In this document: positions 683 to 57,254 of the stretch, piece by piece
Position numbering within the stretch: position 1 is the first letter of the stretch
Layout of the letters: each line of letters begins with the position of its first letter
NCBI GenBank assembly: GCA_039096225.1
Contig: JBBPEB010000029.1
Coordinates: forward strand, 1-64,000
DNA: 64,000 nucleotides
Reading direction: 5' to 3'
Origin: Blastocystis sp. Blastoise
Lineage: Eukaryota > Sar > Bigyra > Opalinata > Blastocystidae
Notes under the pieces: model-generated
Databases searched by the model: none
What the model saw: the letters and a program-made list of their open reading frames with translations, nothing else
Told to the model about the DNA's origin: nothing
Made by a program: the position numbers and the translations under genes

Positions 683-3600
683 TTAATGAACAGACATCAA
701 TAAACCTTGTTTGATATATATATCTTTATATACCTTACGATTATAATTATTATTCAATATATGATATTTATAATAATGATAAATAAAATATCCGACAATA
801 ATGAATACTGTTATTCCTATTACACTACCGATAATAATATATACTAAAGAACCATTACTGGTATTTTCTATAATATGTATGTCATCATAATTACTAGTGA
901 TTGTACAATCCGATAATAATACTTGAATATCATTATTTGCATCTTTATATTCATTCATAAGATAATGATATACAGTATCCTTCCATTTCTCAACTTCTCT
1001 TTTAATATCTATAATACGAATAATCATACGAATCTTATTATTATTATTAAGATATATATCTTCCAATGACATAATCCATATATGAGAAGAAGGAATAGAA
1101 TAAACAGATAAATAACTATCTAATGTATGTAATAATATATAAATTTGTTTTCCTTGAATCGATTCACTTCTGATTCCTGATATATATATAGTATACTCTA
1201 TATATACATAAGGAGAAGAAGGAGAAGAAGAAGGTAATAAACAACGTGTTCTATTTTCATTTGACCATAGAGCAGAAACTCCATTACGAACACATTCACG
1301 TGCTCTATAAGAAGTTCGAATAGAAGTACATAATAAATAAGCTGTTTGACCAATAGAAGTTTCTGGCCAATCATTTTCTTCTTTACATGTATGTTCTCGA
1401 ATCACTAGTTGTATATCTATACTCACTTGCTTATCAGGATTACTTGCAGTTATTTTATAAGGCTTTAAAGATGATAGTATAGTAGGTGTTCCTTCAATTA
1501 CTCCACTTTTCGTATTTAATGTGATTCCCGTGGGGAAATCAGGAGTCACAGTCCATGAATTAATATAATTCTGAATATTAGGAGATATTCCTATTAATGG
1601 ATCTTGTATATAAGCTACAATATAAGTAATAGGATAAGTAACTACAGGTGTTTTATATATACATGTATTGGATATATTAGTCCATTTTGGTATATAATCA
1701 TTACTACATATTCGTGTAATAAAACCTTCTTTATATAGATCTCCACAATCTAAAGTGATTGTTTCTCCTTTATTTGTAGCAGGAAAACGACCTTCTGCAG
1801 GACATTGAGGATTGATTACTGTTATGGATATAGGTATATATGAATAATTATCAGTATTTGAAGCAATAATCATATGAATAGATTCAGAATAAGGAGATTT
1901 AGGTATACCTGTGATAGTACCTGTAGTTACATTCATAATAAGTCCTTCAGGAAGAGAAGGAATAATAGACCATGAAGTACATATACCTATACATAATGGA
2001 GTAATAGGATATAATTCAGAATTAATCACTGCTTGTATATAAGAAGGAGTCATAGAAATAGAAGGAGATTTTAATTTACAATTATAATGTTCTTGATCCC
2101 ATTTTATAGCAGTATATCCATCTTCTGTTACATAAAAATTCTTTGAAGATGTAGAATCTAAACATCTTCGTTCTCGTATACCTATATATCCATCAGGACA
2201 AGATAAATAATTATCTGTATTATATCTAGCTGGAGGCCATTCACCATCTTCAAAACATAAATAAGTATCAGTACTTATTATTAATAGAATAGTAACGTTA
2301 TTATACTGACCTTCTGCTTTTATTGTATAATTATTCTTTTTTGTATATACTAAAGGTATTCCTGAAATAATTCCATTATTAAATAGAAGACCATTAGGAA
2401 GATAAGAAGGAGTAATAGACCATTTCTCAACGATACCTGAAGTTACTATAGGTTCAACAGAAACAGTTCGATTCAATACAAATACATAAGATGAATGTGG
2501 ATAGGATAAAACTATATAATTAGAAGATAAAACACAATGATTCTCAATAGAAGACCAAGAAGGAATTCCATTCGGAGTTGAAGGAGGAATACAAGATCGT
2601 TGATAATAACCATTAAATCCAGAAGGACAATCGATAGTCGTAGTATTTCCTTGATAGGTTCTTGACCATACATCATCTTCTTTACAGAAATCACGATTTA
2701 TATCTGTGGCAACAGATATATATAAAATTGTGGATATAGTAGTATTATAATGACTAGAAGAAGCAGTTATAGTATATTGTGTAAGAGGAATATAAGTAGA
2801 AGAAGGAACACTAGTAATAACACCAGTAGCTGTATTTAATGAGAAAGAAGAAGGAAGAGAAGGAGAACTAGTGAAATTCATATAGAGAGCATCTATGAAA
2901 GGAACATTTATAGAAATAGATTCAGAAGCATATAATAAATAAATTGATTGATCATAATTAAATATAGTTGGAGGAGATAAAATACAATTCTTATTATCTT
3001 CATTACTCCAAATACCTTTATCTGAACAGAGTCGTTTCTTTTGACCTGTATAAAATAATCCACAAGATTTATATGAATATTCTCCATAATAAACAGAAGG
3101 ATATCCATCAATTGATGTACAATAATTATCTATAAGTCCTGTAAACAATGAAAATTCAGATACTTGTGCAGCTAATTCTGAAGTACATAAAGATTTTTCA
3201 TCATTTTCAAGAAAATTATTTTCACATTCATCAATAGTTAATCTATATCTATTATAAGGAATATCACTAATAATAGAATAAGATTTCTCTTCATATTGAT
3301 ATGTAAAATATTGTTTACTTGTTTTATGTATAATAGTATAATTAATATCATCATTAGAACCTTCTAATGTCCATCCTGAAGGAGTATATATATTACACAC
3401 ATAAGAATTACTTATAGAATATCGATTAATATATTCTTGTATTTGATTATTATAAATATATGAAATAGAAACACCAACACATTGTGATCTATATTTATAT
3501 ACAGTATTCTTATTATTATCAAATGCATTAGCTAATCTATTTCCTTCATTTTCATCTAAAAAGCCAGTATATCCATAGCCATTCTTCTGATTACGTATAT

Positions 3601-6600
3601 CTTTTAATATAGGTACCAAACTAGCACTAAATATACTATCATCAAATATACGTTTACCACGATGTATCTCTATAGCTATAGTATTATTTCCTATATTTAT
3701 AGATACAGGACTTAATTGTAAATGAATACTTCCACCTACTGTTTCAGGTAAATAAGGATCAAATATTGATAATGTATTACGAGTTATAGATATATTCTCT
3801 AATCCATATCGAAATGCTTCTTTTCCATTTATATATAATATACATCCACCTCTTAATGTTATTGTATAAGAGAGAACAGCTATATTCTGTAATGTAGTAA
3901 AATAATAATTCATTCGATAATATTGTGTTATACCTTGAGGTGGGGACATATTTAATATAGTTTCTGTCTTCCATCCTATTGGTTGATAATCTATCTTCAT
4001 CCAATCATATGGAAGAGGATTATGAGTTAAAGTATCATCATAATAAGTCCATTGTATTTCATTAGGTAATACTACATTATAAATAGAGAAATAATATTCT
4101 TTTTTATATTCTGAAGGAGATAGAGTTCCAGTAAATACAGTAGTACTATCTCTTAATAGTATAGAAACAGAAGAAGAAAGCCAACCATTATTATCTCTAG
4201 TAACTAAAATAATTGAATAATCAAATGTCATGAGACATAAAGGAAAAGCACTATTTGTTATTCGTGTTAAATGAGTATAATTACCAATAATTTCTTTTGT
4301 TTCTCTATCTTGAATATAATAGGACATAGTATTAGAAGGTGCATCCCAAGATGTAGAGAAATACGATTTAAATAATATATTTGGAGATATACATGAATAT
4401 ATTTGTATAGTTAATGTAGTATTCTTATATTCATTTCGAATATCTCTTCCTTGTATAATAATAATAGTATTTTCTGTTGTTTCTAAAGGTATACCTACAA
4501 TAATACCTGTATAGGTATCTAAAGATAATCCTTTTGGTAATGTTCCTTCTATAATACTGAATGATATATAATAATCAGTAGGATAAGAAGTAGATATATC
4601 TATTCCTATATATCCAATAATAGGATTTAGAGAATATGTTAATTCAGGAATAAGAATAGAATTCTCATTAAACATATAAAATTCTAATTGACTCATTTGT
4701 ATTCTATAATAGTTATCTTCTTTTGGTTTATATATTGATAATAAATAAATAGAATAAGATTGTATATGTGGATATGTATAAAAGCATTTTCTATTTATAG
4801 ATGGAGTCCATTTCATGTCTTCTTGAGTATTTAATAATATACAATGTAATCGTTCATAATCACAACCATAGAATGACCATGTTTGTGGACCTTGTTCAGG
4901 AAAAGCAGGACGAATAGAAATGCAATACTTATTAATATACTCAAATCGATATTTAGATTCATAAAATAACGTTATTGTTCGTGGTTGTTCCCTATCGTTG
5001 TAATATCTCATAGTAAATGAAGTATAATAATCTAAATCAAAAAGCATAGATATATAACTTTCAACTTCTGTAATATTAACAGAGCCAAATATATTCCATA
5101 GTCTAGGATATATAGCACTAGATGATAAATAATGTATACTTAATTCTACATTATTTGTATAAGGTAATTTTGTAGTTCTACTATATAGTGTAGCAAAAGC
5201 AATAGTATTGATACCATTATGAAAATAATTCATCGATAAAGAAATGGTTCTAATTGTAATACTAGTATTATTATTAGAAGGCATAGTATTATCTGTAATA
5301 GGAATAGAAGTATCATTAAGATCTGTTTTATAAGCTATTTGTTCATTTATATATAATAATACACTATTCGGACCTTTTAATATGATTTCCATACCTTGAT
5401 ATTTATTAGTATCATCAATATTAATTGTAGTACGATAATAACGATTATAACTATTATATTTCAATCGAGAAGAAGTATTTAAACATGAAAACCATGTATT
5501 TGTTATAGGAGAAGAAGAAGAAGTAAAATAATCATTTGTATACCAAGTAGAATCTATAAGTGTATCATTATCTAATTTACAGAGAACAGAAGAATCACGG
5601 TTATTGATCAGATAATCCAATGCAATTGGAGATTCTTGTGAATATCCATTATGTAAAGTACCATAGAAAATAGTATTTGAGTAAATATCATCTCTTAAGG
5701 ATATTTTTAAATTGGAAGAAGTAGACCAAGAAAATGATCCTGATGATGATAAACGTAGTATATATATACCTTTTAATAAACATAAGGTTCTATAATAAGG
5801 AGAAGAAGAAATAGCATGATCTAAATATACAGCAGTATTATTTTTATTAATTAATTCTATATATTCATATTCATAAGAAGAAGCTGCTGAATTCTTTATT
5901 AAATCAACAATTACATATTTATCATTACTACACACTAAAATATCTACATGAAATGTAATAGTAATAGTTTTCTCATATAAATAGCTATACGCTTCTATAA
6001 TAAAATCATCATTAAAAGCAACTGTAGGATATCCACTAATAGTTCCAGAAATAGAATCTAATGTCAATCCTTTAGGAAGAGAAGAAGGAAATTTCATTCT
6101 ATAATCAGATACACCAGAATGAATAGGAGAGATATTCACTTTCTCTATATTAATAAACCAAGTAAATGAATCAGAACCATAAGAATATTCTTGTAGAATC
6201 TCTTTATTACTTGCATAGAAATTGATATTATATACAGAGACATAAGTAGATGTTTGATAGGTTTCTGTAAATGTAATATTGATAATATTAAATAGATGTA
6301 TATTAGATAAGAAATAAAATGTTTGTAAATCATTGATATTCGTAAACATTAAATTACTATAGAAAGCAATAGGTTCCCAAGTAGTGCCATTATCATTAGA
6401 TCCAGAAATAAAGTAGGATTTAGGAAGAGATTTATAATCCGAAACATCACATGCCATGTCTATTGTATTAATCCATTCTTTACGTTGATTTGGAAATGTA
6501 TATAATAAGGAAGCACGTTCATTAATCATTAATCCTGACCATTTCGTTGTATATAAACCATCAAATGCATTATCAGCTATCTGATCTTCTTTATATAGAG

Positions 6601-7856
6601 GAGTAGAAGTAGATGTGCCATTAATACTACGTTGTACTTGATCTCCAGATAGAAATAATAATGTTGCTTCAAATTCATCATTAGTAATAGGTGTATTGTT
6701 TGCTTGATGAACTTCAATAGCTATAATAATATCTGTAGAATTACCAATAAAGTAATTATAATTGGCTGAATAAGATTTTAATGTATATGCTGGATCTGAT
6801 TGAATTGCATAATCATTGGGAGATAGATCGGTACTTTGAACATAGTGATAAGTTAATAATTTTGAATTTATATAGATAATAATACCTTCTTTTGATTTAA
6901 TGGATAATTCTAATAACGTAATGCCAGAAATATCTTTATTGATTTGAATAGTACGTCTATAATAACGAGTAATAGAAGAAGGAGTAGGAAATCGACCACT
7001 ATAATAATAATTCCAATTCGAATCATCATAAGAATAATAAATCCATTCTTTATAAGGAATAGGAGTAGATGTATATCTCCAAGGACTACTAGTATCCAAT
7101 ATGTAATAAGCTATATAAAGCAGATGTTAGTTTTTATAGTTATGAAGAAATACTTTCATAATAGAACTATTTGTTAATATTAAAAAAAAAATTATATATA
7201 TATATATTTACGATAGAAAGAGAATTCACCATAAGAACCTTGACTCAAAGTATATTTACTTAATACGGATAAATGTATAGATAACATTATATAAGAACCA
7301 TAACTCCAACCTTTTCCCCAACTATATATTAATCAACACAATAATAACAATTAATTTAAATAATAAATATATAATAGAAAACGATTTTAAATATTTCTAA
7401 TATATATATATGAATGTATTTATTAAAAAAATGTCTAAAATAGTAATCTAGTTTTATATAAATATATCAACAAAATATATTATAAATAAATATAATAATA
7501 ATGTAGAAAAAATACAACACAAGAAAACTATATATATATATATAATTACGACGAAATTGCAACTACGGTATGAGGAGTTGGATTCAAGCATAAATTGAAT
7601 GTTTGAAGCATGTTACCTTGACCATACTTTCCTGATAGGTCAAAAACAAGAGTCCCAGTGATTCTATTGCCTTGATAAACAGAAACTCTTTCATACGCAA
7701 CAGATGTTCCATATTTCCTTGTTAGAATTGTCTCTATAGTGTTCTCTGGACATGTTGCCAAACCTATATATATATATACCATAAAGTGAGATATCAGTTA
7801 CTCTGATCCAATGACATCAGAAGCAAAATAACAATTAGACATATATTGATCTTCAT
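683..7856 (-). CDS. Giant modular type I surface protein (discoidin-like, He_PIG and Cys-rich modules)
   Basis: Four exons (7856-7802, 7763-7550, 7321-7212, 7110-683) join in phase to 2268 aa. Exon 1 encodes a signal peptide, MKINICLIVILLLMSLDQS. The long last exon has no ATG at its 5' end, so the upstream exons are needed. The N-terminal part holds three units of similar order: a Cys/Trp-rich beta module, a YYR...YING galactose-binding-like module, an F5/8 type C (discoidin)-like module (NAFD...GSND near residues 300 and 1326, weaker near 813), and a putative-Ig He_PIG module (LPKGLTLD...GTISGYP near 473, 983 and 1550). Next come further He_PIG modules (near 1696, 1845, 1985) alternating with five six-Cys modules resembling hormone-receptor (HRM) domains, C..W...G....C...G...R.C...W...C. 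One membrane helix near 2213 and a short basic tail end the protein. It is probably an adhesin or recognition protein at the cell surface. The exon structure is well supported; the domain names are by eye. Confidence 0.8.
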
Positions 7857-8847
7857 TGTTTTTGCATAAAGTCTAGTTAAAAACATACAAAACTAGACAA
7901 TAATGAGAAAAATCATTTTGTAATAAAACATTTATTTACGGTTATAATTTAAAACACTAGTGAAAAAAAAATGTTTTTTGAATTTTTAAATTTGATATTG
8001 TTTATTCTTTTTTTTGTTTTGAAGGTATTTTACCCTTGATCTTTGTTTGTATCCAGCTTTATATTATCTTTTTTAAATTGAAGATGCATCTGATATCATT
8101 TACCATGACTATCTACTTATTTTATACACTCTTATTATAGAATAAGAAAAGTCATTTAGTAATTATTTAGATTCTACTCGTATTAAATCATAAAGCATGC
8201 GTGCTACTCAGAATAACTACAATTCTAATATATTAAATTCAAAAAACACAAATTAATCGAATTTAAAGAATTTATTTTTGTAATATTGCGATAATACATA
8301 TATTCACATCATTATCATAGCTTATTCTACTTATATTAAATAGATTCGAATAAAAATATTAGATAATTTGTTAGTGTTCAAAGGAAATACAATTAATTTT
8401 CATAGAAGGAAGTTGTTATAGAAAATTTATGCTTTATATATGTGTTTCAAGATATGCTTCTCTCTATAGATGTTCAGAATCATAGTTATTAATTGAAAAT
8501 GATATATTATAATATTTAAATAAAGAGTAGACATAGATTAATGCTTAAATATATTTAGTAGTTACTTTTATGTCCAATTTTTATTAAATTCTTTTCATGT
8601 TTGTGTTATATAAATATAAGTAATAAACTATGTCTTAAAAAGAGATTAAAAATGAATATATAAATAATTCTATTTACTTTTGAATTAATTATTTAAAACA
8701 ATCAAATATTATAATCATGTAACAAGATATAATATATATATAAAACAATATTCATTTGATAATTAAATTTATTTTAATAATAATTTACAAATCTAAATTG
8801 AATGTAAAACTTTATAAAAAATAATAATAAAAATAATTTTATCAACT
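7857..8847. other. Intergenic, promoter side of the surface-protein gene
   Basis: About 1 kb between the start of the surface-protein gene and the 3' end of the next minus-strand gene. It is AT-rich with no credible frame. It should hold the surface-protein promoter and the neighbour's poly(A) region, but I recognise no specific motif. Confidence 0.5.
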
Positions 8848-10202
8848 TTAGAACAAAGAATCAAAGGTGAATGTCTATATATAAACATAATATTAGTTAA
8901 TTTCTAATGATATATATAATATACTTTAGATAATAAATAATCATAGTTAGGAAGTTGATTGATAATTGTTTGTGTTTCTTCAGAGACTGGATTCTGAATA
9001 ATAGTATTTTGACTATTGTTCATAGTACTTAATATTGATTGAATAGGTATAGAAGAGTTATTCATAGATAAAGAAGAGTTATTCATAGATAAAGAAGAGT
9101 TATTCATAGATAAAGAAGAGTTGTTCATAGATAAAGAAGAGTTATCCACTGTTGAAGGAACAGCTAAGATATCAAGTGCAGAGATATTATTATTATTATT
9201 ATTATTAGAATCATAAGTAGTTGTATCTTGTGTTTGTGAAGACATATCGAAATCAAAATCATTAAGGAAAGAGAGATTATTAGGAGATTTAGGAGTAGTA
9301 GAAGAAGAAGGAGTATTATTATTTATAGAGGAGAATGAATTTGAAAATAGAGGAGTTGATGATGGAGTAATAGATAGATTCCTATCATTTGAAGTATTCT
9401 CCTTTTTATTATGTATATCTTCTTTAGATGAAAGATTCATCGAATCCGAAATATTATTATTCTTCAATTTACGATCTTTTCGTTTTCTGGATGTTTCTCG
9501 TGGAATTGAAATTGATTTTGAAACAGTTATATTCGTATCTTCATCTGACCAATCATCATTTGTGTTTTTAGAAATAGTATTTATCTTATTATTTTGAGTA
9601 GAATTCATTAAGGAAGGTTTATCATCATCTGACCAATCATCTTCATTAGATAAAGATTGAATTTCATTTTTAGATTTATTATTGGCTGATTTCTTGTTAT
9701 TCATGAATTCTTCATCATCTGACCAATCATCTTGAACTACTGATTTCTTAGATATCGTAGTAGATATATCTGGTTTAAATAGATCTTCATCACTCAAATT
9801 GTCTTCTTTAATTGATTGTTGTTTTATAACAGAAGATGACTTTATTTCATTAGACTTTATAGTATTCTTAATATTCTTTTCTTCATTTTTAATACCTTTT
9901 TTATCATCATCTTCATCAGAATCGATATCCCAATCATCTATAGTCGACTTTTTCATAACTGAAAGAACAGGAATAGTAGTAGTAGTATTATCTGAAATTT
10001 TATTATTATCTGAAATTTTATTATTATCTGAAGTTTTATTATTATCTGAAACTTTTTTATTATCTGAAATATTATTATTAAATTCATCATCACTATTAGA
10101 CCAATCATCATGTATTACTTTAGAAGAAACGGTTTTTATTGGTTCTTTCTCTATAGAAGATCGTCTTGAAGTATTTGTACGTTGTTTTCTTATACGTGAT
10201 GT

Positions 10203-10233
<31 letters not shown>

Positions 10234-12880
10234 GATAAAGATTTGGTTCTTTCTTTCGAATTCTTTTCTTCTTCACTATCGCTATCAAACATTGACATAT
10301 TTATAGGTTTTGTAACTTTACGAGATAGTTCATGTTTACTACGAAGAGAGCGTTTTGTTGATACATTCTTTGTAGAAAGAGAAGATGATGTAGGAATTGA
10401 AGGGAGTTCAGATTTATTAGGAGTAGAATTGACTTTATTGATTTGAAAGTCATTATCATCATCATCATCAGACCAATTCATATTATTTTGTTTTGATATA
10501 GTATTTGAAGGTTTAAGTGATTTAGGAGGGATAATAGGAGGAATATCTTGAGATGGTTTAAGTGATTTAGAAGGGATGGTAGGAGGAATATCTTTAGATA
10601 ACGTAGTATTAGGAATAGGAGAAGAAGTATCTGAATCTGAAAACCAATCCTCATCCTTTTTCTTTTTATTTATAGATGATTTAATATCAGTAGTAATAAC
10701 AGAAGGAATTGGATCTATTTCTTCTTCACTCTCTGAAATATCCCATTCATATTTACTTTTAGTAGAAGATACTTGATTTGAAGAATTTATAGATTGGTTA
10801 TTGATTTCTTTATTATTATTATTACTATTATTATTATTAGTAATAATTTTATTATTATTATTATTATTATTATCTTCATCACTCCAATCATTATCATTAT
10901 TATTATCTTCATTTATTTTCTTTGATGATTTAGAAATAGTAGATTTTAATGAAACAGTAGAAGACATAGGAACTGTTGATATATCTTTATTCATATTAGA
11001 ATTATCTTGTTGATCTTTAATATCTTTCTTTATAATATTCTCAGTACTATTGATTTGTTTAGAAGGAATTGAAATGGAGACAGTTTCACTATCATCTGAC
11101 CAATCATCATCAGTATCTATTTCAACAGTCATCACTGGCTTTGTATTCGATTTAACAATAGGCTTTTGAGTGTCTTTTACTTGCTTAATCAAATTACTAG
11201 TAGTTCTTGAAGAAGAAAGAATAGTTGAATCATTACTCTTTATTTTTTCTTTTTCTTTTTCTTTTTCTTGTTGTAAGCGATGAAGTTGTAATCGTGACAT
11301 TCCTTTTTCGGTTGTTCCAAGACGTTGAGTATTATGACGAGTCGAGGGTTTCTTCTCAACAATAAATTCATCATCATCATCATCATCCCAAGAGAATTGT
11401 CGTGTTTTTTCATCAGTAGACACTAATTTTGATTTATTTACTTTATTATTCTCTAGAGTATGTTTATCATCATTCTTATCACTATCACTATCTCCAAATA
11501 AATCATCTGTATCAATTTCTTCTGCATTCTTCTTAGCATTCTCTATTTGAAGTTGAACTTGTTTTATATCTTCTTTCTTTTCTTCTTCTTTTCTCAAATT
11601 ATTCATATCATCTCTCTTTTCTACTCGTAATGATTTCTTTGAAGAAACATCATTTGAAACATTATTCTTATTCTTATTCTCAATAAACGTATCACTATCT
11701 TCATCATCATCTTCCCAAGAATATTTCCTATTCTTATTATTTGTTATAGGATCTTTCTTATTCTTCTTATCATTATCCTTATTATTTCGCTGATTCTTTG
11801 GTTCTTTTGGTTCTATTTCCCATTCTTCATCGTCATCATCACTTATTTCTTTAACACTCGACTTTATCGTCGTTGATTGTACAACTTTTGTACCGAATGA
11901 CTTGGAAACTGGAGTTTCTACTTCCCATTCTTCTTCATCATCATTATTATTATTATTATTATTAACTGTAGAAGATATACTTGTTTTCTTTACCTTTATT
12001 TGATCATTAATAGTTTTATTATTCATATTTTTATTATTAATATCCTTATCATTATTAACATCCTTATTATTATTAATATTTTTATTATTAACATTCTTAT
12101 TATCTTCCATAGCTTCATTTGATTTCGTTTGTCCAGTAATATTCACTGATTTATTAACAACAATATTAATAGGTTTATTATTATATTCTACTTGAGATGG
12201 AGAGAGAGGTTCAGAAGGAGAAGAAGAAGAAAGAGGCGTTTTTCTATTACCTATTTCATTTGAAGAAACAGTATCTTCTTTATTCAATTCATCTAATTTT
12301 TGTGATTCTTTTGAGGATAACTCAACAGAAGAAACAGATTGACTTGGAATTGAATCCACAAATTTCTTTTCTATCACCGAGTGCTTCACAATCGGAACAA
12401 CTATTTATAAATATAATACATAATTATAATTTAAAAAAAAAAGAAAAAAAAACAATAAAATACCATTAAAAGCTTCAAATTGGTCTTTTCGTAATACAAA
12501 ATTCCAACGCTTGTATAATTCAGAATTATCAAAAATAGTCTGATTATCATCTTTCTCTTTTTCTATCGAATCATTTGAAAAAAGAAGATTTCTATAAAAA
12601 ATACAGAGAATCAAATATCTGTAATAGATCACACATACCTTGCGTAACTCTCTAAGTAAGCATCAAACTCAAAATTGATAGTATCAATAGCATGACGAGG
12701 ATCTTCTTTTACAAAAGCTTTCTTAAAAGAATTTCGGATTCTCATTATATTCTTATCAAACTGATCTTCACTTATCTCTTTATTTTCTGTATTCGTATGT
12801 TCCAAAGACGAAATAGGAAGCTCATCTACTTTTTCATTTGCTCCTATTATTGGAAATTCTTGATCCTTTTCTGGTTCCAT
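8848..12880 (-). CDS. Acidic DDW-repeat protein, function unknown
   Basis: Exons 12880-12639, 12591-12464 and 12400 onward join in phase (introns of 47 and 63 nt). The last long exon either stops at 8904 or, more likely, splices at 8925 over a 50-nt intron to 8874-8848, giving 1290 aa ending TFTFDSLF. The N-terminal ~120 residues are predicted helical and contain the only folded-looking part. The rest is disordered, rich in Ser, Asn, Lys and Asp, with more than ten acidic tryptophan motifs (DDWSDDD, EEWEVE, EEWEIE, DDWDID) and a few DLF motifs. Five MNNSSLS repeats lie near the C-terminus. Acidic Trp motifs bind the delta-COP mu-homology domain (Dsl1, ArfGAP1) or kinesin light chain in known proteins, so a trafficking scaffold is a reasonable inference. 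I do not recognise an orthologue. Confidence 0.75.
9052..9146 (-). repeat. 21-nt in-frame tandem repeat (MNNSSLS)
   Basis: About four and a half copies of a 21-nt unit in the 3' part of the DDW-repeat gene encode MNNSSLS repeats. The copies are almost identical, which points to recent slippage or unequal exchange. Confidence 0.9.
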
Positions 12881-27355: not shown

Positions 27356-29360
27356 GACCAAAATGTAAGGGAATTTTCTGTTTTCACTTGTCAAATAAAA
27401 TATCTCTGATACTACGAATAACTACTATTTTATTTATAGTTTAGAACTATCTGCTTTCCTTCAGTTCTTGGAAAAGAGTAAGATTTTATCAAGTATCAAA
27501 TTATTAATAATCAAGAATATTTTTGAGAAAATGACATCGTCTACTTGTTCTTAATAAAATTCTCGCGATTTTTCATTTTTCTTTTTTTTTTTGTTGTTTT
27601 ATATCTTTTTTATTATAAAGATCCATGAATTGTTTATTTTTAAACAATCGTACATTGTAAATAGATCCAATCTAAGGAATCTAGTAATTAATTGTTTCGA
27701 TTTCAAAAGAATATTAGTTTTAATCTCCTTGTTATCAACTATTTCATTCATCTCTTGAACATTCCTCACTTTATTTATATTTTAAATGAATCATCTCTTG
27801 ATCTAAAAAAATAATTACTTTAAATAGAAAATTTCCACTTGTATATGTAGTTTATTTCGTCATGAAACTATGAATTGATTATAATAAACGAATTATTGTC
27901 ATAAAAAAAAGATTTTAATAAATATTTTTTTTATAAAAAAAATTAGGATTTCAAAAAATTAGGATTTCAAAAAATTAGAATTTCAAAAAAATTAACTTAA
28001 TATCAGAGAATTAAAGTGAATAGCGTAACAAGTTTATGGATTCACTTGGCACCAACGCCACCGAAATGGCTCAGGGAGACCTACTCATCATACAGTAAAA
28101 AACCTTTTACTGGAAGGATCGAAAATTATACATTTTGATTTTTGTATATAAACCAAAAGAAAACTTCTAATCAAGACGCATGAAGATATGATTGGATGAA
28201 CCAATTTATCATTGACAACATCTTGTTCAAATCAAAGACTTATGTTTCTTTATTTGGCAACAAAATTTTCGATATATATAGATTATTAAATAATAAAATA
28301 TATTCCAATAGAATCTTCTCACAGACTAATTCAAGAAATTCTCCTGTCATTTAAAACAATATTTGCTTCTCATTCATAAATTTTTGAATTATTAAGCATT
28401 CACATTCTTTAAAACAATTTACTTACCACAATGCTATCATTGAATACATTTTTTGTTCAAAACATGATTCTCTTGTTTAAGAAAACAATAAAGAAAACGC
28501 TTTTAAGTAGCTATACTATTCTAAATTCTTATATCTTATTAATTCACACAAACAAAGGAGATATTTTTGACTAGAATACATTCAAAATTATAAAATATCA
28601 TTTTTAAAAATCTAAATTCACTCAATATCACTTTAGATTCATATCAAAGTTATGTTTTTCTCCTTACTCAAGTTAATAATAACCCATAAATAGCAGTTCA
28701 TCAACCCTTACATTTTAATTTATTATTCCTTGTTGCTATAATAAAATCCCTTCTAGAATAAAGCTTAATTTCTCTTTTCCAGAATATCTTGTTCCACTTT
28801 ATACGAAGAAAAATAATTAGAAACCATAAAATAGAACTAATTACTCAAAAAAACGGCAGAATCAGCTAGTTACTTCTTTCATAGAATCTCTTCAATAGAT
28901 CATTAAAGTGATTCTATCATTATAATCAAATTTTGTCCATAAAATACATCATATTACTTAAAAAAACAAAAAAAATAATAAACAACTGACAAAGAATCAT
29001 TGATCCACATGAATTAATAAATTTTCAATTAGTTTTACAGAAAATTGTGTGATGACATGATAATGACAATGTATGCCTCTCTATATCTGTCAGCAAAATA
29101 AGCCATTCTTATTAGTTGCTTCGTTGTGTCGCACACTGTCTGTCTTTATTCTCGAATAATCTGAAGAGAAGAGAAAAAAGTCGAATTGTCTGGAAGGTTC
29201 TATTCACGAATATTTTGGTCTTAGTACTTATTAATAGAATCTCTCCCAGAATTCTTCCGATACCCAAACTTCTGATAAGAGAAATATTGATAATAACAGC
29301 TCTTTTTTTTTGTTGGATATAGATACTCCATAAATATTTTTATTTACTTATATATAAATC
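27356..29360. other. 2-kb divergent intergenic region
   Basis: Lies between the starts of the Vps35-like gene (-) and the aldolase gene (+), so both promoters are here. A short GC-richer island at 28030-28130 is described separately. The pyrimidine-rich, GC-richer stretch at 29100-29320 just upstream of the aldolase is probably its promoter and 5' leader. I see no coding gene. Confidence 0.5.
28030..28135. other. GC-richer island with hairpins, possible ncRNA
   Basis: The words CACTTGGCACCAACGCC and CGAAATGGCTCAGGGAG stand out from the surrounding AT. An 8-bp perfect hairpin (CAGTAAAA, loop AACC, TTTTACTG) follows at about 28091-28110. On the minus strand ATGATGA (box C consensus) lies 15-20 nt before CTGA (box D), so a C/D-type snoRNA is conceivable. 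No known RNA family is matched. Confidence 0.25.
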
Positions 29361-30440
29361 ATGTCTGGTGCTTTATCTTTCTTACATCCTGGTGTTCTTA
29401 CTGGTGACGAAACTGAAAAACTTTTCCGTTATGCTCAAGAACAAGGATTTGCTATTCCTGCCTTCAACTGTACTTCTTCTTCTACTGTCAATGCTGTTTT
29501 AGAAGGTGCTAAGGCTGTCAACTCTCCCGTCATCATTCAATTCTCTAATGGTGGTGCTGCTTTCTTCTGTGGTAAGGCTATTAAGGGTGATAACCAATAT
29601 TCTGCTGTTCAAGGTGCTATTGCTGGAGCTAAATACGTTCATGCCGTTGCTGCTCTTTACGGAATTCCCGTTGTTTTACATACTGATCATTGTGCCAAGA
29701 AACTTCTTCCTTGGTTAGATGGTTGTCTTGATGAAGATGAAGATTACTTCAACAAGTATGGACATGCTCTTTTCTCTTCTCATATGATCGATTTATCTAT
29801 TGAAAAACTCGATGATAACATTGAAATCACCAAGAAGTATCTTGAAAGATGCAACAAGGTTGGTGTTCTTCTTGAAATGGAAATCGGTGTTACTGGAGGT
29901 GAAGAAGATGGTGTTGATAACACTGCTGTCTCTAACAATGCTCTTTATTCTCAACCTGAAGAAATTGATCACGTCTACACTGAATTAGGTAAGATTACTT
30001 CCAGATTCACTGTTGCTGCTGCTTTCGGTAACGTTCATGGTGTTTATGCTCCTGGTAACGTCAAGCTTCAACCTCAAATTCTTCACAACGCTCAACAATA
30101 CGTTGCTGAAAAACACTCCCTCTCTGTCAAGCACCCCGTTATGCTTGTTTTCCATGGTGGTAGTGGTTCTCTTCCTGAAGAAATCACCTATGCTGTCAAG
30201 GCTGGTGTTGTCAAGATGAACATTGATACTGATACTCAATGGGCTTATTGGGAAGGTCTTAAGAACTTCTATGAAGAAAAGAAGGCTTATCTTCAAGGAC
30301 AAATTGGTAATCCTGAAGGTCCTGAAAAACCTAATAAGAAGTATTATGATCCTCGTGTTTGGGTTAGAAAGAGTGAAGAAACTATGAGAGATCGTGTCAA
30401 GCTTGCTTTTGAAAGACTTGGTGGATGCAATCGTAACTAA
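29361..30440 (+). CDS. fba: Fructose-bisphosphate aldolase, class II
   Basis: An intact 359-aa open frame without introns. It cleaves or forms fructose 1,6-bisphosphate from dihydroxyacetone phosphate and glyceraldehyde 3-phosphate in glycolysis/gluconeogenesis, using a Zn2+ ion. The N-terminus (PGVLTGDE..KLF.YA, FAIPAFNCTSSSTVNAVLE) and the class IIA signature with its metal ligands are present: VVLHTDHCAKKLLPWLDG (catalytic Asp and Zn His), EMEIGVTGGEEDGVDN (Glu), AFGNVHGVYAPGNVKL (Zn His), VFHGGSGS (Zn His), and VVKMNIDTDTQWAYW (phosphate binding). The length matches the family. Codon use differs sharply from its neighbours (GCT, GGT, GTC, AAG, AAC preferred), as expected of a very highly expressed gene. 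Absence of introns is unusual for this locus. Confidence 0.98.
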   Translation: MSGALSFLHPGVLTGDETEKLFRYAQEQGFAIPAFNCTSSSTVNAVLEGAKAVNSPVIIQFSNGGAAFFCGKAIKGDNQYSAVQGAIAGAKYVHAVAALYGIPVVLHTDHCAKKLLPWLDGCLDEDEDYFNKYGHALFSSHMIDLSIEKLDDNIEITKKYLERCNKVGVLLEMEIGVTGGEEDGVDNTAVSNNALYSQPEEIDHVYTELGKITSRFTVAAAFGNVHGVYAPGNVKLQPQILHNAQQYVAEKHSLSVKHPVMLVFHGGSGSLPEEITYAVKAGVVKMNIDTDTQWAYWEGLKNFYEEKKAYLQGQIGNPEGPEKPNKKYYDPRVWVRKSEETMRDRVKLAFERLGGCNRN

Positions 30441-44778: not shown

Positions 44779-47700
44779 ATGAGTGTTTCTTCAACAAGTA
44801 TGTAAAATATCTTTATTTTGTTGCTATTCATATATCTATATAGGTACTCTATCGGATTTTCTTAGTATTATTCGTAAAGCAGTTTGTGAAACTGTGTTTG
44901 ATGATAATCCATCAGCAAACTCAACAGATACTAAGGAAACACTTCTTTCAGATATTGATAAATGCATCAAAAACGTATTTTTATAATTATTCAACTCTTA
45001 AAAATTCATATATTTTATTTTTTTATAGAATTCTGTGGATAACATTGAACCATTAACACTTCATATCTTTGAAGCATTTTGTGAAGATGTATATATGAAT
45101 AATTAATATATATTAAATACATAATGACTCAAATAATAATTAAAACATTGTTTATAGAGACGTTCTTATTTTAGTGAACTTCTACGAGAAATAGCCAATG
45201 AACGTTCTCGATTTAAAGTTATAGAAGACTCTTGTGATACAATCCAAGTATATATATTATATTATATTATATTTTCTTCTTAATTAGTATTCTATGTATA
45301 TTTTTTAAATTTAATTTTGAGTTTTATTATTATGTTTATTATTATTATTATTATATAGTTGTCTTTATGGCAATCGATGCATCCCCAAGAATCTGCGAAA
45401 TTACTTCAATATTCAAAATCAATTTTTAAATTAATAAAGTCCCATATTAATACTAATGATTATTATACAAATACACAAGTCTCACAAGAATATCTTAATT
45501 ATAAACAGTATTTATTATTTATTATATTTATTAATATTTTTAATTTTTTTTTTATATATTAATAAATTATTATATATATATATTTAAATTATTATAGATA
45601 TTAATAAATATAATAAAAATAATATATAATCAATATAAATATAGTATTATTATAAAAACCTTATAAAACCATTATACTATAGGAAAAGTGACGATTTACA
45701 AAAGTATATGAATGAATTACAGGAACAAGTTGATTTATTAAATAAACAGAAAGAGACTCTTCTTCTTTCTATATCTACTTCTACAGCTATATCTCCTTCT
45801 CCTTCTATTTCTTTACCTATAAACTCACAAGAAACAAATTCTATGAAACTATCTGAATCTAATTCAGCTATATCTCTGAATTCAGAAGAAATTGAAACAT
45901 TATCTTCTTCTTCTTCTGTTAGTACTCCAAAAGAGAATTCTATTAAACTTGTCGAATTATCTACTTCTACTCCATCTAATGAATCTATCGATCCAAATAA
46001 GTTGAAAATAGATACTCAATTAAATAGTTTATTAAAAGAATTCCAACAAGAACAAGAGTCAAATCAACTTATTATACAATCTTTACAAGATAAAGCTTAT
46101 CAATATACTCAAGAAAAGAATAAATTACAAATTGAAATGACAAAATTAACAAAACAAAATGATGAATATTCGAAGAAAATACTTGAATTACAAGTATGTT
46201 TAAGTCAAAAAGAAGCTCAACTTGTAAGTATGAAATGTGATTTAGAATCAGATAAGAAAATACTAAATAATAATGAGAATCGTTATCAGTCTCTTCTTGA
46301 AGAACGTAGTTCTATTTTAAATAAAATGAATTTATTATCTCGTGAAAAAGAAGATTTATTAGAATTACAATCAACATATAAGAATGAAATTAATCGATTA
46401 ACTGCTATTGTTAATGAATTATATAATGCTATTGAGTCGGATAAAGAAAGAGTACTCAATTTAAGTAATATTAATAAACAATTAGAATTAGAAAATATTC
46501 AAATTAAATTGAAATTAAAACAGATAGATCCATTAAATAATATGTATTCATTCTCAAATATATATAAATTTAATACTAACTCAACATCTATAAATTCTGA
46601 TGAAAATAATGATACGTTAGCTATAAAAGATAATATTGTTGATAATAATAATGGTGATAATAGTGATATTGTTGATAATAATAATGGTGATAATAGTGAT
46701 AATATTGATATTGCTGATAATGTTGATATTGCTGATAATACTAATGTTGATCATGTTGATAATACTAATAATAATACTACTAATACTACTAATAATATTA
46801 ATACTACTAATACTACTCCTCCTAATAATCTCTCTTCATCATCTCTTCTTTCTATATCATCAGAGACATCAATATCTCAAGATATTATAAATACATCTCC
46901 TGTATCTATATTATCTTCTACCAATAATCTTAAGAATATTACGAGTATCAATAATTATGGGGATAAAGAAATTGATATCGATATAGAAAGTCAATCTAAA
47001 GATTCTATAGAATCTGATACAAATAATACTATAGACAATAATACTATTGACAATAATACTATAGACAATAATACTATAGACAATAATACTATTGACAATA
47101 ATACTATTAACAATAATACTATTAACAATAATACTATTAACAATAATACTATAGACAATAATACTATAAATACTGCTACTTCTCCTAAAGATATTCCTGC
47201 CCAAGTTCTTCATCTTCCTAGTTATAGTGTATTTAAAGCCCATGATGATAATGATGGAATAGGTGAAATAATAGATGTTTCTTCTTTCTCTGAAATAGCT
47301 CGAAATGCTATTTGGAAACGAGATAATGAAATTACATATCTTGAAGATCGTATAGATAAATTACAATTAGCAAATTCAGGATATTATGACCATACTATAG
47401 CTTTAAGTATGGGAGAAAAAGGAAAAGAAATAGTAGAACAATCCTATCAAGATAAATATGAAGATCTTTCTAGTCGTTATGAGTCGTTAAATCGTGAACA
47501 TGAAAAGTTACAAGTAGAATATAATTCTTTAGAACAATATATTCAAGATACTATTCATAATAGAGAAAAACAATCTATAGTAGAATCAAGTATTTCTTCT
47601 GTTTGTTCTCCTTCTACTAAGAAAGAAGAAATATCAAATAATGAAATGAATCAAAATAATAATCTAATAGAGAATACTATAAATAAAGAAGATACCTTGT

Positions 47701-49423
47701 CTCCTGAAGACGATGTTACTCCTTCTAATGCTTATTTATTAGGTATTCAAGATTCTTATAATACTTTATATGAAGAGAAAGAACAGATTTCAGAACAATT
47801 ACAAACTTTACAAATCTCTATGATTAAGATGAGAAAAGAATATATGAATACTATTGAAGATAAACAGAAAGAAATAGATCAATTGACACATAATATAGAA
47901 GATAAAATGAATATTATTCATGAATTTGAAATTGAATTAAAGAAACATGAAGATAATCAAGGAAATTTATCTCCTATTTCTAAAGATGAAATCTTAGCAT
48001 TTATGGAACAAACAAAGAAATTAACTGATAAATTTGAATCTCTGTCTTCTTCTGTTATAGAAAAGTCATCTGCTGATACGAATAGTATAGTTAAGAATGA
48101 TAGTAATAATTCTATGATAACTACAGATATCAATTCTAATAATATACAAAATAATAATGAAGATGAACTAAATCAATTGAAATTCAATATATCAGAACTT
48201 CAAAAACAAGTTAATTCTTCAAAACAAGAAATAGAAAAGTATAAGCAAATTATAGAATCTAAAGAAGAAGAAGAGAAAGAAATAAAAGTAAAATATGATG
48301 ATATTATCTATAAATATAATGAATTAACTAAAAATAATACAGAAAGTATATCAAAATATACATCAATGGAAGTTAATTATAAAGAAGAAATTCAAAACTA
48401 TAATGAACAAATAGAATCGATGAGTGAAGAATTAGAACAACTTCATATTCAATGTGATCAATATATAAATAATGAAAAGAAAAATAAAGATAGTATTGAG
48501 GAGAAAGAAAAAGAAATAATTCAATTAAATACCTCAATAAAAACTCTTCATGAAAAAATTCAGAAACAATCAGATATGGGTATGAGATTGTCTGAATTAA
48601 TGGATGAAATAGAAGATATGTCAAATGAATTAGAAACTAATGCTTCTACTATTAGTTATCTAGAGAAATCTGTTAGTTCTTTACAACATCAAAATGAATT
48701 ATTAAGTATAGAATATAATAAAAAGCGAAAAGATTATGAATCTCTTAATCAAATAAATATACAAGTAAATAAAGAAAAAGAACAATATATAAAAGAAAAT
48801 AAACAATATAAACAAGAAAAAGAACAATTAATGAAAGAAAAAGAACAATATATGAAGGAGAAAGAACAATATATGAAGGAGAAAGAACAATATATAAAGG
48901 AGAAAGAACAATATGAACAAGAGAAACATCAACTTGAAGAACAAATTGAATTATTAAAGAAAACAATGAATGATGAAACAATGAATGAAACTAAACCTGA
49001 TTCTGCTACTCAATTAAATAATAATATAGAAGAAAATGAAATGATAATAAAACAATTACTTGAAGAGAAATATCAATTAGAATGTGATAATAAAACACTA
49101 GTACAACATATGAATGACTTAGGAAATCAAACAGAAGAAGTTCAATCTAATTATAATTATTTATTAAATGATTATTTATCATTACCTGATTCATTTGATT
49201 TATATGATATATCGTTATCTCGTGTTCATAAGATTAATAAGAAAGATGTTCATGATGTTGTTAATACTATAAATGAGTATTTACAACAAGTACGTAAATG
49301 TATGGTCTCTACAATGAATGATTTTACGGATATTAAACAAGCATTTCAAGACTTAAAACATGACTATGAAAATCATTTATTTAGACATAAGCATAAAAAA
49401 CATTCTAAAGAGGATGATGATGG

Positions 49424-49460
<37 letters not shown>

Positions 49461-52400
49461 AAAGAAGAAGATGATGATGAAGATGAAGATGATGAAGATG
49501 ATGATAAAGTATTTACTTTACAATTAAAATTACTAACTTTAGCTAGTGAATGTGATAAACAAATTAAAATGAATGAAAAAATAGAAAAGACATTAAAAGA
49601 AAAAGAAAAAGAAATAAATACATTAAAATCGAAAGTATCATCCTTAGCTTCATCTGTAGAATCTATTCAAAAAGAAAAAGAAAATGATGATTATGAAAAT
49701 AAAGAATTATTATTCACGTTATCTAGACAACATGAAAAATGTTTAACTGAATTAACTTCATTTAAAGAAAAACAACAAGTGATTGATAATGATATAAATA
49801 ATGATAATAATGATAATATAAATAAAGATAATAATATAAGTAAAGATAATGATATAAATAAAGATAATGATATAAATAATGATAATAAAGATAATAATAT
49901 AAATAATGATAATATTATAAATAAAGATATTGATAATAATATAAATAAAGATATTGATATTGATAAATCAACTGATATAAATATTTCAGAATCAAATTCT
50001 ATGTTAAATACTATTCCTAAAGATACGAATTCTATAGATTTTAATAAAGTTCAAAAACAATATGAAGAATCATGCAAACAATTGGATGATTTGAAGAAAT
50101 CTGCCAATGAAATGGAAGAGAATTATAAACGTATTATATCTACTTTAGAAGATGAAAAGAAGTCTCTTATTATAACGAATGAACAATGTACTAAAGAGAA
50201 TGAACTATATAAGAAATCAATGGAAGAGAAAGAAGATACAAGGAGACAAATAGAAGAAGAAGTTGTTGGCTGTAAAAAAGAAATAGAATCGAATCAATTG
50301 AAAATAGAAGAAAATATCAATACAATTACAAAATTAACAAATGATAATAATGAATTAATTAAAGAGAAGAATGAATTAAAGAGTGAATATGAACATATAT
50401 ATAATGAATATGAGAAATCAAAAGAATTATTAAAAGAGAAAGAAACAAATTCACTAAAAGAAAATACTATTATTGATACCTATAAGAAAGAAATAGATGA
50501 TCTTCAGCAGGAAGTGCAAGATAAGAATATTATAGTGAATGATTCTCAAATAAAACTCAAAGAACAAGATCAAACCATTGCTGAATTGAACCTGAAAATG
50601 GATGAATCTAAACAAATTCTTGAAGATAAAGAAAAAGAGATACAAACAAATAAAGATTCTATAGAAGAAAACAAAAATACTATAAATAAATTAGAAACTG
50701 AAATAAATGATTTAAAGAATACTATATATACACTTGAACAGAAATCAAAGCAATTACAACTTGATCAAGTAAGTCTTCAAACATCAAATAATTCATTAAT
50801 TACACAAATAGATAGTATGAAACAGAAAGAAAAAGAAAATGAACAAGAATATATTTTATTAAAAGAAACTAATATTACTTTAGTTGATGAAAAGAGAAAA
50901 ATTAAACAAGAATTAGAAACAATGAAAGATTCTATAGAAGAATTCAATAAATCAATTAAGTCTGAACAAGATAAAAATGAACAATTAGCTAATCAAAATA
51001 ATATACTTGAAAATAAATTATCTTTATTAACAAATGAAATAGAATCCGAAAGATTATCAAAAGATAGTTTTGATAGTTCTATAACGGAATATAAATTAGC
51101 TAATGAGAAATTAGAAAAAGAAATTCAAATGTTGAAAGAGTCAAATAATTCGTCGACACAAGAAGTTATTCATCATTATGAAGAGTTATTAGCAGATAAA
51201 GTTCATGAAATAGAAAATAAAGAAAATGAAATTAATCAATATATAAGTGAAATAGATATATTAAAGAAAGACATTGAAGATGGAAAAACAAAAGATACAG
51301 AGAAAGACTTAATTATAAGTGATAAGAATAAAGAAATTGAACAATATGAGAATAAGAATACGATGTTTTTCAATGAGATAGAGTCTTTAAAGAAGGATAT
51401 AATACAATATAAACAACGAATTGAAGAATGTAATGAAGAGATTGAAGATAAAGAAGAAGTTATTCGTGATAAAAAGAGTGTGTTATTAGAATTAAATAAT
51501 AAAATAGAACAATATATGATTACGATGAAAGAGAATGAAAAGGAAATTAATATATATAAATCATTAGTTGAAGAGAATAAGAAGGAGAAAGAACAATTGA
51601 TGGAAAATATAGATAAAAATACTCAAGAAATTAAAGACTATAAATGTATAATAGAAAAGAAGAATAAAGAGATAGAAGAACAAAAGAATACTATAGATAT
51701 ACAAATACAAGAAATCGATCAATTACATAGTAATCAAGAAATGATGAAGAAACAAATTGATGATCATGAAAATATTATTAATAAATATAAAAAACAACTT
51801 GATAATTATGAAGAGAATATTAATAAATATAAGAAAGAAATTGATAATTATGAAGAGAATATTAATAAATATAAAAAACAACTTGATAATTATGAAGAGA
51901 ATATTAATAAATATAAGAAAGAAATTGATAATTATGAAGAGAATATTAATAAATATAAAAAACAACTTGATGATAATGAAAATACTATAAATAAATATAC
52001 TCAACAAGTTGATGATATTCATAATATAATTCAAGATATTCATAATCTTTGTGATTCGAATAGAAGTTCTGAAGATATAAATATTATTCCTATTGATTCT
52101 TCTTCATGTGATCCTAATGATGATTCGAATAGAATTCTTGAAGAAATGAAAGAGATTCACCTACAATTTAGTACTATATTAAAACAAATCAAAGAATCTA
52201 ATAATACAATAGATATACAATTGAATACTATTCATCAATATGAATCTACAATAGATATGCATACAAAACATATAGAAGATTTGGAACATACTATTAAAGA
52301 ATTAAAGGAATCTATTTCTCATTATATAGATGCAGACATAGAAAGAGAATCTTTATTAGAGGAAGCTAGTAAACAAATTGAAGATGATCAGAAAGAGATG

Positions 52401-55400: not shown

Positions 55401-57254
55401 CGAGAAAGTAAAGAATTCTATGATATAGCTATAGAAGAGAAGGAGAAGAAGATAGAATCCTTAAATAAAGATTTAGAAGATGAATATAAGCGTGAAGAGA
55501 GTCTTAAGAAACAAATAGAAGAGAATATGAAATGTATAGAAACATATAAGAAGGAATCTATGAATATAACTGATATGAAGAATGAAATAGAAGATAAATC
55601 ATTATTGTTAGAGCAATTAAATAAAGATATGAATATACTGAAATGTTCTTTAGAAGAAAAGAATAAAGAATGTGATCAATATATAAATGATATTAATGAA
55701 TATAAGAATATGATAGATACTAAGGATATAGAGCTTTCGAAATATGAAGATATAGTGAATAAAGAGAAGAATAAGAAACAAGAATATAAATCAACAATTC
55801 AACAGTTGAAGAATCAAATAGAGCAAATGAATATACAGATAAATCAATTAAGAAAAGAAGAAGAAGAACTAGAAAATGAAAAGAATAGTTTATCAAATAA
55901 TTTAGAAGAGAAAGAACTTGAGATTCGTAGTAAACAGAAAGAAAATGATCAATTTCAAAGATTATTTGAAGATAAAAAAGAAGAATATTCTGAAATGTGT
56001 TTGAAATTATCTGAAAGTGAGCAGAAGATTCATGATTTCGAAGATTTATTAAAAGATAAGGAAGAAGAGAAGAAGGAAATGATAAAGAATAAAGAAAAAT
56101 ATGAAATTTCATTATTAGAAATAAAGAATCAGTTAGAACATAGTAAAATGAATATAGATTCTTTCTCACAAATCATGAATAAAGATGATTTAATAGATAA
56201 TAATAATAATAATGAGATTAGTATATATAAGAATAAAATAGATCAATATAAGAATGAGAACGAGGAATATCAACAAAGAATATATAGATATGAACAAATA
56301 ATAAAAGAAAATCAATTAGAACTTGAATGTTATGTGAAAAAGATAGATGTATATAAGAAACAGATAATTGAATTGACCCAAGAAAGAAATAAAAATAGAG
56401 TTAATATAGAGAAATTACATTATACAACTCAATTATATGAAAATAAATTATCCTTTTATGAAAATGAAATTAAGGAATATAAGCAATCGATTCATAGTTT
56501 ATATGAAGATAAATTGAATTTACAAAGTAAAATAAATGAATATAAACAAGATATATATAAGAAAACATCTATAATTGAAGAGAATTCAAAGAAGTATATA
56601 GATACTCAAAATGATTTAAAGAAATATAAAGATCAAATACATGTATTAGAAGATCAAGTTATTTCTATGCAATCAAGTGATATTGTTGATAAGAATAATA
56701 ATAATGATGTTGATAATAATAATAATGATGTTGATAATAATGTTGATAATAATGTTGATATTGTTGATATTGTTGATAATAATAATAATAATAATAATAA
56801 TAATTTGGATTCAACTTCTGTGAATTCTATTATTCGTTTATTGAATAATGAATTAAATGATATTCAAATGAAATATAGTGCTTTACAACAATCTTATGAT
56901 CAATTATTAACTGCAAAGAATACTATAGAAGCCGATAATGACGTATTAAGTGAACAAGTGAATCAATTAGAAGTTGAAAAAGAAACAATTGAAAAAGAAT
57001 ATGAAGATCATAAACAATCTCTTCGTAATTATTATACTGAATTACAATCACTTCAAGACTCTTTAAAAAATAATATGAAAGATAATACAACTTCTCTTTC
57101 TCAATCTATACATACTCTACAAACACAAAATAAAGTATTAACAAATTTATTACCAGATCTTCAAGATGTAATTACTCGACCTTTTAATTATGATGAATCC
57201 ATGAAGAAAATTAATCAATTAAATAAACAATTTGAATGTATCACAAAGAATTAA
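44779..57254 (+). CDS. Giant coiled-coil protein (4006 aa)
   Basis: Six exons (44779-44797, 44844-44974, 45029-45088, 45158-45247, 45359-45507, 45683-57254) join in phase. The first five are small and encode a ~150-residue globular/helical N-terminus (STLSDFLSIIRKAVCETVFD, PLTLHIFEAFCED, SYFSELLREIANERSRFKVI). The last is an 11.6-kb uninterrupted exon. That exon encodes long heptad-type coiled coil (K/E/Q/N/L/I rich) broken by low-complexity inserts: DNNTIDNN repeats (about 47028-47170), an Asp run (49426-49500), NDINKDN repeats (49785-49970), a 14-residue NKYKKQLDNYEENI repeat (51770-51980), Asn/Asp tracts (52610-52800), and NNDVNNNVNND/TINDTIND repeats (53745-53935). The size and coil content recall golgins, CENP-F/NuMA-type or spindle-pole scaffolds, but no family signature is seen. 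Confidence 0.85.

Follow-up and report, generated by a model that had tools for sequence, protein, structure and literature searches.

Gene structure and module order

Near the start of contig C19 (JBBPEB010000029.1) of Blastocystis sp. Blastoise, whose genome of 33.3 Mb is assembled in 34 contigs, lies a minus-strand gene for a giant adhesin-like protein, which belongs to a family studied here for its copies and their diversity. The window analyzed is the first 64 kb (64,000 bases) of this contig. The gene is real: a single, uninterrupted open frame of 2147 codons was observed from 7126 to 683, and three upstream exons joined this long frame in phase, giving four exons and a product of 2268 amino acids. 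The introns were 38, 228, and 101 bases long, with GT/AG at every border. Seven close copies were found elsewhere in the genome, and in six of them the matching exon borders kept GT/AG throughout; in the seventh, on C24, exon 1 was not recovered by DNA alignment, and an annotated protein of 2268 amino acids assigned to C24 exists. A failure of the upstream exons to join was ruled out on sequence by the splice sites and the frame, in the window and in those six copies. With GT/AG borders, the frame kept and the exact length of 2268 amino acids, the predicted joined protein proposed in a first-pass annotation of this DNA was upheld. The closest public proteins were hypothetical proteins of the same strain, 87–91% identical over the whole query (C20, C24, and C29). 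The parts of the gene, in the order of the protein, and the repeats at the contig start are as follows.

7802–7856, minus: exon 1, with the start codon and a hydrophobic segment resembling a signal peptide (hydropathy peak at residues 5–23)
7550–7763, minus: exon 2, bulk of GDGW module 1; among the most divergent coding parts across copies, except towards C25
7212–7321, minus: exon 3, end of GDGW module 1
683–7110, minus: exon 4, remaining protein to the TAA stop
6620–7108, minus: YYR...YIN module 1, residues 128–290, part of the internal repeat
6209–6619, minus: discoidin/CBM32-like module 1, residues 291–427, conserved across copies
5933–6208, minus: He_PIG 1, residues 428–519
5570–5932, minus: GDGW module 2, residues 520–640, diverse across copies
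5123–5569, minus: YYR module 2, residues 641–789
4670–5122, minus: discoidin/CBM32-like module 2, residues 790–940, the most diverse module in exon 4
4394–4669, minus: He_PIG 2, residues 941–1032
4055–4393, minus: GDGW module 3, residues 1033–1145, diverse across copies
3596–4054, minus: YYR module 3, residues 1146–1298
3125–3595, minus: discoidin-like module 3, residues 1299–1455, diverse across copies
2984–3124, minus: HRM-like module 1, four Cys
2690–2983, minus: He_PIG 3
2534–2689, minus: HRM-like module 2
2261–2533, minus: He_PIG 4
2078–2260, minus: HRM-like module 3
1808–2077, minus: He_PIG 5, 3 of 90 residues variable among the eight copies
1661–1807, minus: HRM-like module 4
1391–1660, minus: He_PIG 6
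1241–1390, minus: HRM-like module 5
854–1240, minus: putative SEA-like domain, membrane-proximal, strand-helix-strand-strand-helix-strand in the predicted model
779–853, minus: single C-terminal membrane helix (hydropathy and model)
683–778, minus: short cytoplasmic tail and stop
1–200, no strand: degenerate telomere-like repeats, common to C8 at about 46.5 kb and partly to the start of C21

The first-pass annotation had described a block repeated three times, each time closed by a He_PIG module. The repeat was borne out, the three pairs of blocks having Smith-Waterman z values of 15.6, 18.1, and 9.3 against shuffles, but He_PIG closes only blocks 1 and 2; in block 3 the discoidin module runs directly into the first HRM-like module, with no He_PIG between. 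The alternation of HRM and He_PIG modules, given as five-fold, likewise holds for the five HRM-like modules, but only four He_PIG modules lie between them, and the six Cys ascribed to each HRM-like module have to be corrected, since four were counted in every one of the five. The six He_PIG modules were related in 15/15 pairs (z 4.6 to 14.3 against shuffles), and the five HRM-like modules in nine of ten (z 4.9 to 11.9; remaining pair z 1.6). The SEA-like domain that the model suggests after the fifth HRM-like module was absent from the earlier architecture. The module here called GDGW, which is the Cys/Trp module of that annotation, is named after a D-x-x-G-D-G-W motif that some paralogues show, as P0006 and P0010 do in the alignment; neither Pfam, searched with this protein, nor NCBIfam, searched with the block, gave a curated family for it. 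Hydropathy and the structure model agreed on a single membrane helix at the C-terminus (about residues 2213–2237), as had been claimed, and no domain was found in the predicted cytoplasmic tail, which is roughly 31 residues long.

Close copies near contig ends and a large superfamily

The seven close copies were 97% (C25), 95% (C8), 91% (C20), 91% (C21), 90% (C16), 89% (C24), and 88% (C29) identical over 3 kb. Together with the window copy, seven of the eight lay within 105 kb of a contig end, a zone of 19% of the genome (p 6e-5) whose cut was picked after inspection of the data; six were within 100 kb (p 0.00075) and three within 50 kb (p 0.034). The copy on C29 was 350 kb from the nearest end. 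The paralogues at other contig ends that the first-pass annotation had proposed to look for were found in this way. A unique gene at a telomere was ruled out by the seven close copies and by the large superfamily described below.

The contig ends themselves were then compared. Bases 1–200 of the window contain 20 telomeric hexamer words, against a mean of 0.4 and a maximum of 7 in shuffles, so that the telomere-like repeats noted beside the gene are real; the same element is also internal on C8, however, where a stretch at about 46.5 kb was 93% identical to bases 1–682. This 0.7-kb element is therefore not confined to contig ends. Clean TTAGGG arrays were present at two of the eight nearest ends, those of C25 and C16; the starts of C19, C8, C21, and C29 carry a few scattered telomeric repeats, and no telomere array was found at the ends nearest the C20 and C24 copies. 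The other end of C19 has a clean TTAGGG array. The placement of the family at chromosome ends thus agrees with seven of eight close copies, but clean arrays were seen at only two of eight ends, and most copies can be called subtelomeric only by extension.

Searched at the protein level, block 2 matched 88 times, at no fewer than 84 distinct genome places (the 88 minus four in open frames already counted); the number is a lower bound, because 84 of 438 candidates were scored. The copies on C22 and C3 are more distant; their protein identity across block 2 was 46% and 43%. Genome searches gave at least 149 He_PIG matches, with 150 of the 890 candidates scored, and at least 138 HRM matches, with 150 of 381 scored; the longest open frame among them had 8813 codons. 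No HRM match was obtained in 14 control genomes, which, as named for He_PIG, are prokaryotes. HRM is mainly a domain of animal receptors, and such a large set of HRM-like modules is unusual. HRM-like matches were seen in open frames of 8813 (C33, about 572–595 kb), 7594 (C18, about 39–57 kb), and 6374 codons (C30, about 138–140 kb), the first of which also has He_PIG matches; all three greatly exceed the window gene in length. At C22:510–515 kb and C13:985–989 kb, HRM-like matches follow in series over many short open frames, which suggests an intron-rich or decayed family member. Nine He_PIG matches with 840-bp spacing and equal scores in one open frame (C13:32372–39331) suggest a near-perfect tandem array.

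Relatives were also detected in metagenomes. By reading of its sequence, P0016, an unnamed protein with 14 members, has the same three blocks, an HRM-like/He_PIG stalk, and a C-terminal helix; P0105 (14 members) and P0113 (12) combine F5/8 type C, HRM, and He_PIG, and P0118 (20) and P0119 (59) combine F5/8 type C and He_PIG. These proteins probably come from other Blastocystis lineages and, since full-length relatives are among them, the system may extend beyond the Blastoise strain. Named proteins from other Blastocystis subtypes were not among the matches listed (in one search, 120 of 194). Named prokaryotic matches covered about 15–24% of the query with He_PIG-type domains, none with HRM among the matches listed.

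Exchange of sequence between copies

Recombination between the copies was strongly supported. In exon 4, with 432 informative sites, incompatibility rose from 0.225 within 30 bp to 0.630 beyond 3 kb, and the neighbor compatibility score was matched by none of 2000 shuffles. Furthermore, agreement runs were longer than in shuffled sites for all 28 copy pairs (p 0.0005 to 0.0145), a per-pair test that regional rate differences can inflate. The flanks pointed the same way. Towards the 5′ side, the window was 96–98% identical to the C25 copy up to at least window position 10,700, the end of the tested stretch, and similarity to this copy ended about 120 bases beyond the stop codon. The C8 copy shares the 3′ side as far as the contig start, and its similarity ended some 90 bases before the start codon is reached from upstream, outside the coding part. 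The window copy is therefore a C25-like 5′ side joined to a C8-like 3′ side.

Window 7860–10700 corresponds to C25:979852–982699 at 98% identity, including at least part of a poly-Asn/Asp-rich frame (8904–12404, minus). The duplication shared with C25 exceeds the gene, because this neighboring open frame was also duplicated, at least in part.

The bias of the close copies towards contig ends, recombination by segments, and diverse outer modules over a homogenized frame would also be expected if a single copy were expressed and an archive at chromosome ends donated segments to it for escape from host immunity, that is, in classical antigenic variation. Early stops in exon 4 were nevertheless absent from all eight copies, that on C20 ending in a run of N, and no sign of a pseudogene archive was seen among them; the nonsynonymous/synonymous ratios reported below are under 1. 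Classical antigenic variation is considered unlikely.

Diversity along the protein

Divergence between the copies was distributed by module. In exon 4, GDGW modules 2 and 3 and discoidin modules 2 and 3 together had a synonymous difference of 0.197 and a nonsynonymous difference of 0.103, and the rest of the exon a synonymous difference of 0.077 (leaving out the run of N that closes the C20 copy on its 3′ side). GDGW module 1 reached a synonymous difference of 0.406 among seven copies, that on C24 being omitted as its 5′ exons were unaligned. The introns, the upstream DNA, and the first module were diverged between copies, except towards C25; for intron 2 the mean difference was 0.392 over 28 pairs, with 0.018 for the closest pair and 0.498 for the farthest. 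Since synonymous sites diverge too, the diverse modules appear to be older in common ancestry than their surroundings. Conversion may rarely reach these modules, or converted versions may have been lost.

A purely neutral account would run as follows: the long exon is homogenized through its length and recombination, the divergent modules were missed by conversion tracts by chance, and the protein has a structural role in a coat or cyst. The ratios below 1, the joint rise of synonymous and nonsynonymous change over modules (r 0.86), the weak focus on loops, and the conserved discoidin 1 would all fit it. Nevertheless, divergence falls on the same module types in two or all three blocks (GDGW 1, 2, and 3; discoidin 2 and 3), and when the module mask was rotated along the exon (2144 rotations) the contrasts were reached in only 0.47% and 0.56% of cases, that is, at about 0.005, though for modules picked after inspection of the data. 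This neutral account was regarded as quite improbable.

Domain matches and predicted folds

In Pfam, He_PIG (PF05345) matched the window protein in six stretches with 92.4 bits against a cut-off of 24, and HRM, or HormR (PF02793), in two stretches with 30.3 bits against a curated cut-off of 26.2, as the first-pass annotation had anticipated for both. The third expected family, F5/8 type C, scored 15.5 bits in the window protein, under its curated cut-off of 28.2, but passed it in the relatives P0014, P0016, and P0024 (42.0, 47.8, and 57.2 bits), and a discoidin jelly-roll fold of the discoidin-like module was supported by both the profile and the fold search. When nine relatives were scanned (E 0.001), He_PIG was present in all nine, F5/8 type C in six, and HRM in six. 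For the YYR module, two relatives scored against BetaGal_ABD2, under its cut-off.

The discoidin-like module has its fold in common with CBM32 / F5/8 type C domains such as those of the GH92 mannosidase 7nsn and clostridial CBM32s. These examples sit on enzymes, whereas the window protein has no enzyme domain in Pfam. The He_PIG/cadherin-like beta-sandwich repeats are shared with SraP, the Staphylococcus serine-rich adhesin (4m00, 4m02, and 4m03), in which GDGW, YYR, or HRM modules were not matched. SraP is bacterial and anchored to the cell wall. When the stalk model was submitted to Foldseek, many Ig and cadherin chains were retrieved with TM-scores of 0.09–0.15 relative to the query; such matches of a model tell only of repeated beta-sandwiches. 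In a fold search of a viral library, none of the matches listed exceeded a query-relative TM-score of 0.25.

With respect to the HRM-like modules, the HormR domains of adhesion and class B G protein-coupled receptors (GPCRs) matched weakly by profile (BAI3, 4dlo, E 0.033, and class B receptors). The best match was complement C2 (E 0.0019), and because it outscored the GPCR domains the HRM profile match is unspecific. Class B GPCR extracellular domains have a six-Cys pattern and the HormR domains of adhesion GPCRs four Cys; the six-Cys pattern was not found in the HRM-like modules. GPCRs have seven helices, whereas the window protein has one at its C-terminus and bears the HRM-like module, with four Cys each, five times; hydropathy and the model both showed this single helix, and not the seven of a class B or adhesion GPCR.

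Proposed function of the family

What was established here for this family is the structure of the gene, its modules, the number of copies, their mosaic exchange, and a diversity that differs by module. The reading that we favor, with a probability of about 0.6, is that it encodes surface glycan-binding adhesins whose scaffold is homogenized by ectopic gene conversion while the outer modules remain diverse. Export, membrane anchoring, a beta-sandwich stalk, and glycan binding by the outer modules are suggested by analogy with known families. The product would be a giant type I membrane protein on the Blastocystis cell surface, with an outer part of three tandem blocks, each of a GDGW, a jelly-roll-like YYR, and a CBM32/discoidin-like module, and an inner part made of a stalk of four-Cys HRM-like and Ig/cadherin-like He_PIG modules, the SEA-like domain, the helix, and the short tail. 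It would most likely act as a multivalent adhesin for glycans, whether those of mucus, of host cells, or of bacteria. The adhesin-like character given to it in the first-pass annotation is supported, as the module types fit: a CBM32/discoidin fold, and He_PIG resembling that of the adhesin SraP. The eight close copies, most of them located near a contig end, would trade sequence through ectopic recombination or gene conversion, so that the scaffold stays nearly uniform and GDGW 1–3 and discoidin 2 and 3 retain divergent versions. With a uniform scaffold and divergent modules, the genome would therefore carry receptors that share one frame but differ in their outer faces. The location at the surface, the binding of glycans, and a benefit from this diversity are all presumed parts of this reading. 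The diversity could be selected by host immunity, by ligand range, or by recognition of other cells, which is speculative.

Several observations weigh against the favored reading. The diverse modules were named only after inspection of the profile, and the nonsynonymous/synonymous ratio was below 1 in every module (0.08–0.90), so that positive selection by this ratio is unsupported. Discoidin 1 was conserved among copies, and in discoidin 2 the loops were barely more variable than the strands (0.275 vs 0.204), a weak case for loop-focused variation. N-glycosylation sites were not enriched (26 vs 31.5 in shuffles), and the discoidin folds of the non-lectins SUN2 and BIRC6 scored nearly equally high. 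Beyond the close copies, the wider family was not enriched near contig ends, as 17 of 76 other block genes were within 105 kb and 14.5 were expected, and a chromosome-end habit of the entire family is unsupported. Additionally, the window copy lies at a contig start, so an assembly chimera is possible.

Receptors for prey capture or self-recognition, directed to bacteria, mucus, or other Blastocystis cells, would have a diversity that fits ligands and not host immunity. The discoidin/CBM32 fold in common with bacterial glycan-binding modules, the large family with open frames of many lengths, and the mention of bacteria trapping by Blastocystis in the available text of PMC5608401 are consistent with such receptors, but they depart from adhesins only in their target. 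We consider this target-specific version improbable. More tentatively, and with the odds somewhat against it, the glycan-binding adhesins may form a variable surface-receptor system not yet described in the literature searched, with dozens of giant He_PIG/HRM/discoidin proteins, a chromosome-end subfamily that recombines, a constant stalk, and an old, selectively maintained diversity of the outer modules.

Relation to known surface families

Other protists keep variant surface families near telomeres. The present family is like them in its copies at contig ends, mosaic exchange, and diverse outer modules; several close copies near contig ends and recombination between copies were both observed. 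The He_PIG domain, the commonest module of the window protein, is taken here to be IPR008009. For Blastocystis subtype 7 (ST7), 26 genes with IPR008009 have been reported as adhesion candidates acquired by horizontal transfer, and duplicated blocks and gene conversion are discussed for that genome in general, in the part of the paper available (Denoeud et al., 2011, PMC3129679). The ST7 proteins thus come from the same genus and have the same proposed role; as far as the available part of that account goes, it does not include HRM, discoidin, or GDGW modules, copies of the present family at chromosome ends, or exchange between them (PMC3129679).

The available text of PMC5608401 does not mention a He_PIG/HRM/discoidin family, and none of the Blastocystis titles and abstracts listed on He_PIG, antigenic variation, gene conversion, or the strain name describes the present one; a paper bearing the strain name was not found. 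The first-pass annotation knew of no described protein with this architecture; the full combination was indeed not found in the literature searched, as far as it was accessible, but the ST7 IPR008009 candidates, GenBank hypothetical proteins, and the 84 or more places in this genome qualify that statement. Under the more tentative variable-receptor reading, the family would be a modular equivalent of the variant surface families already known; Ig-domain candidates for adhesion have been on record for Blastocystis since 2011, and the evolutionary pattern is of interest. The abstract of PMC5608401 ranks Blastocystis first in prevalence among eukaryotic microbes of the human gut. For work on its surface composition and on strain differences in adhesion, the family offers named genes and modules together with a pattern that can be tested, in which the stalk is constant and the outer modules are diverse. 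If true, a variable receptor system is a possible basis for adhesion differences among strains.

Other features of the window

Elsewhere in the window, an open frame of 3869 codons (45645–57254) contains coiled-coil-like stretches rich in K/E/N/Q and internal tandem repeats. The open frame at 29358–30440 resembles a class II fructose-bisphosphate aldolase, and that at 63402–63998 the C-terminal part of an alanyl-tRNA synthetase.
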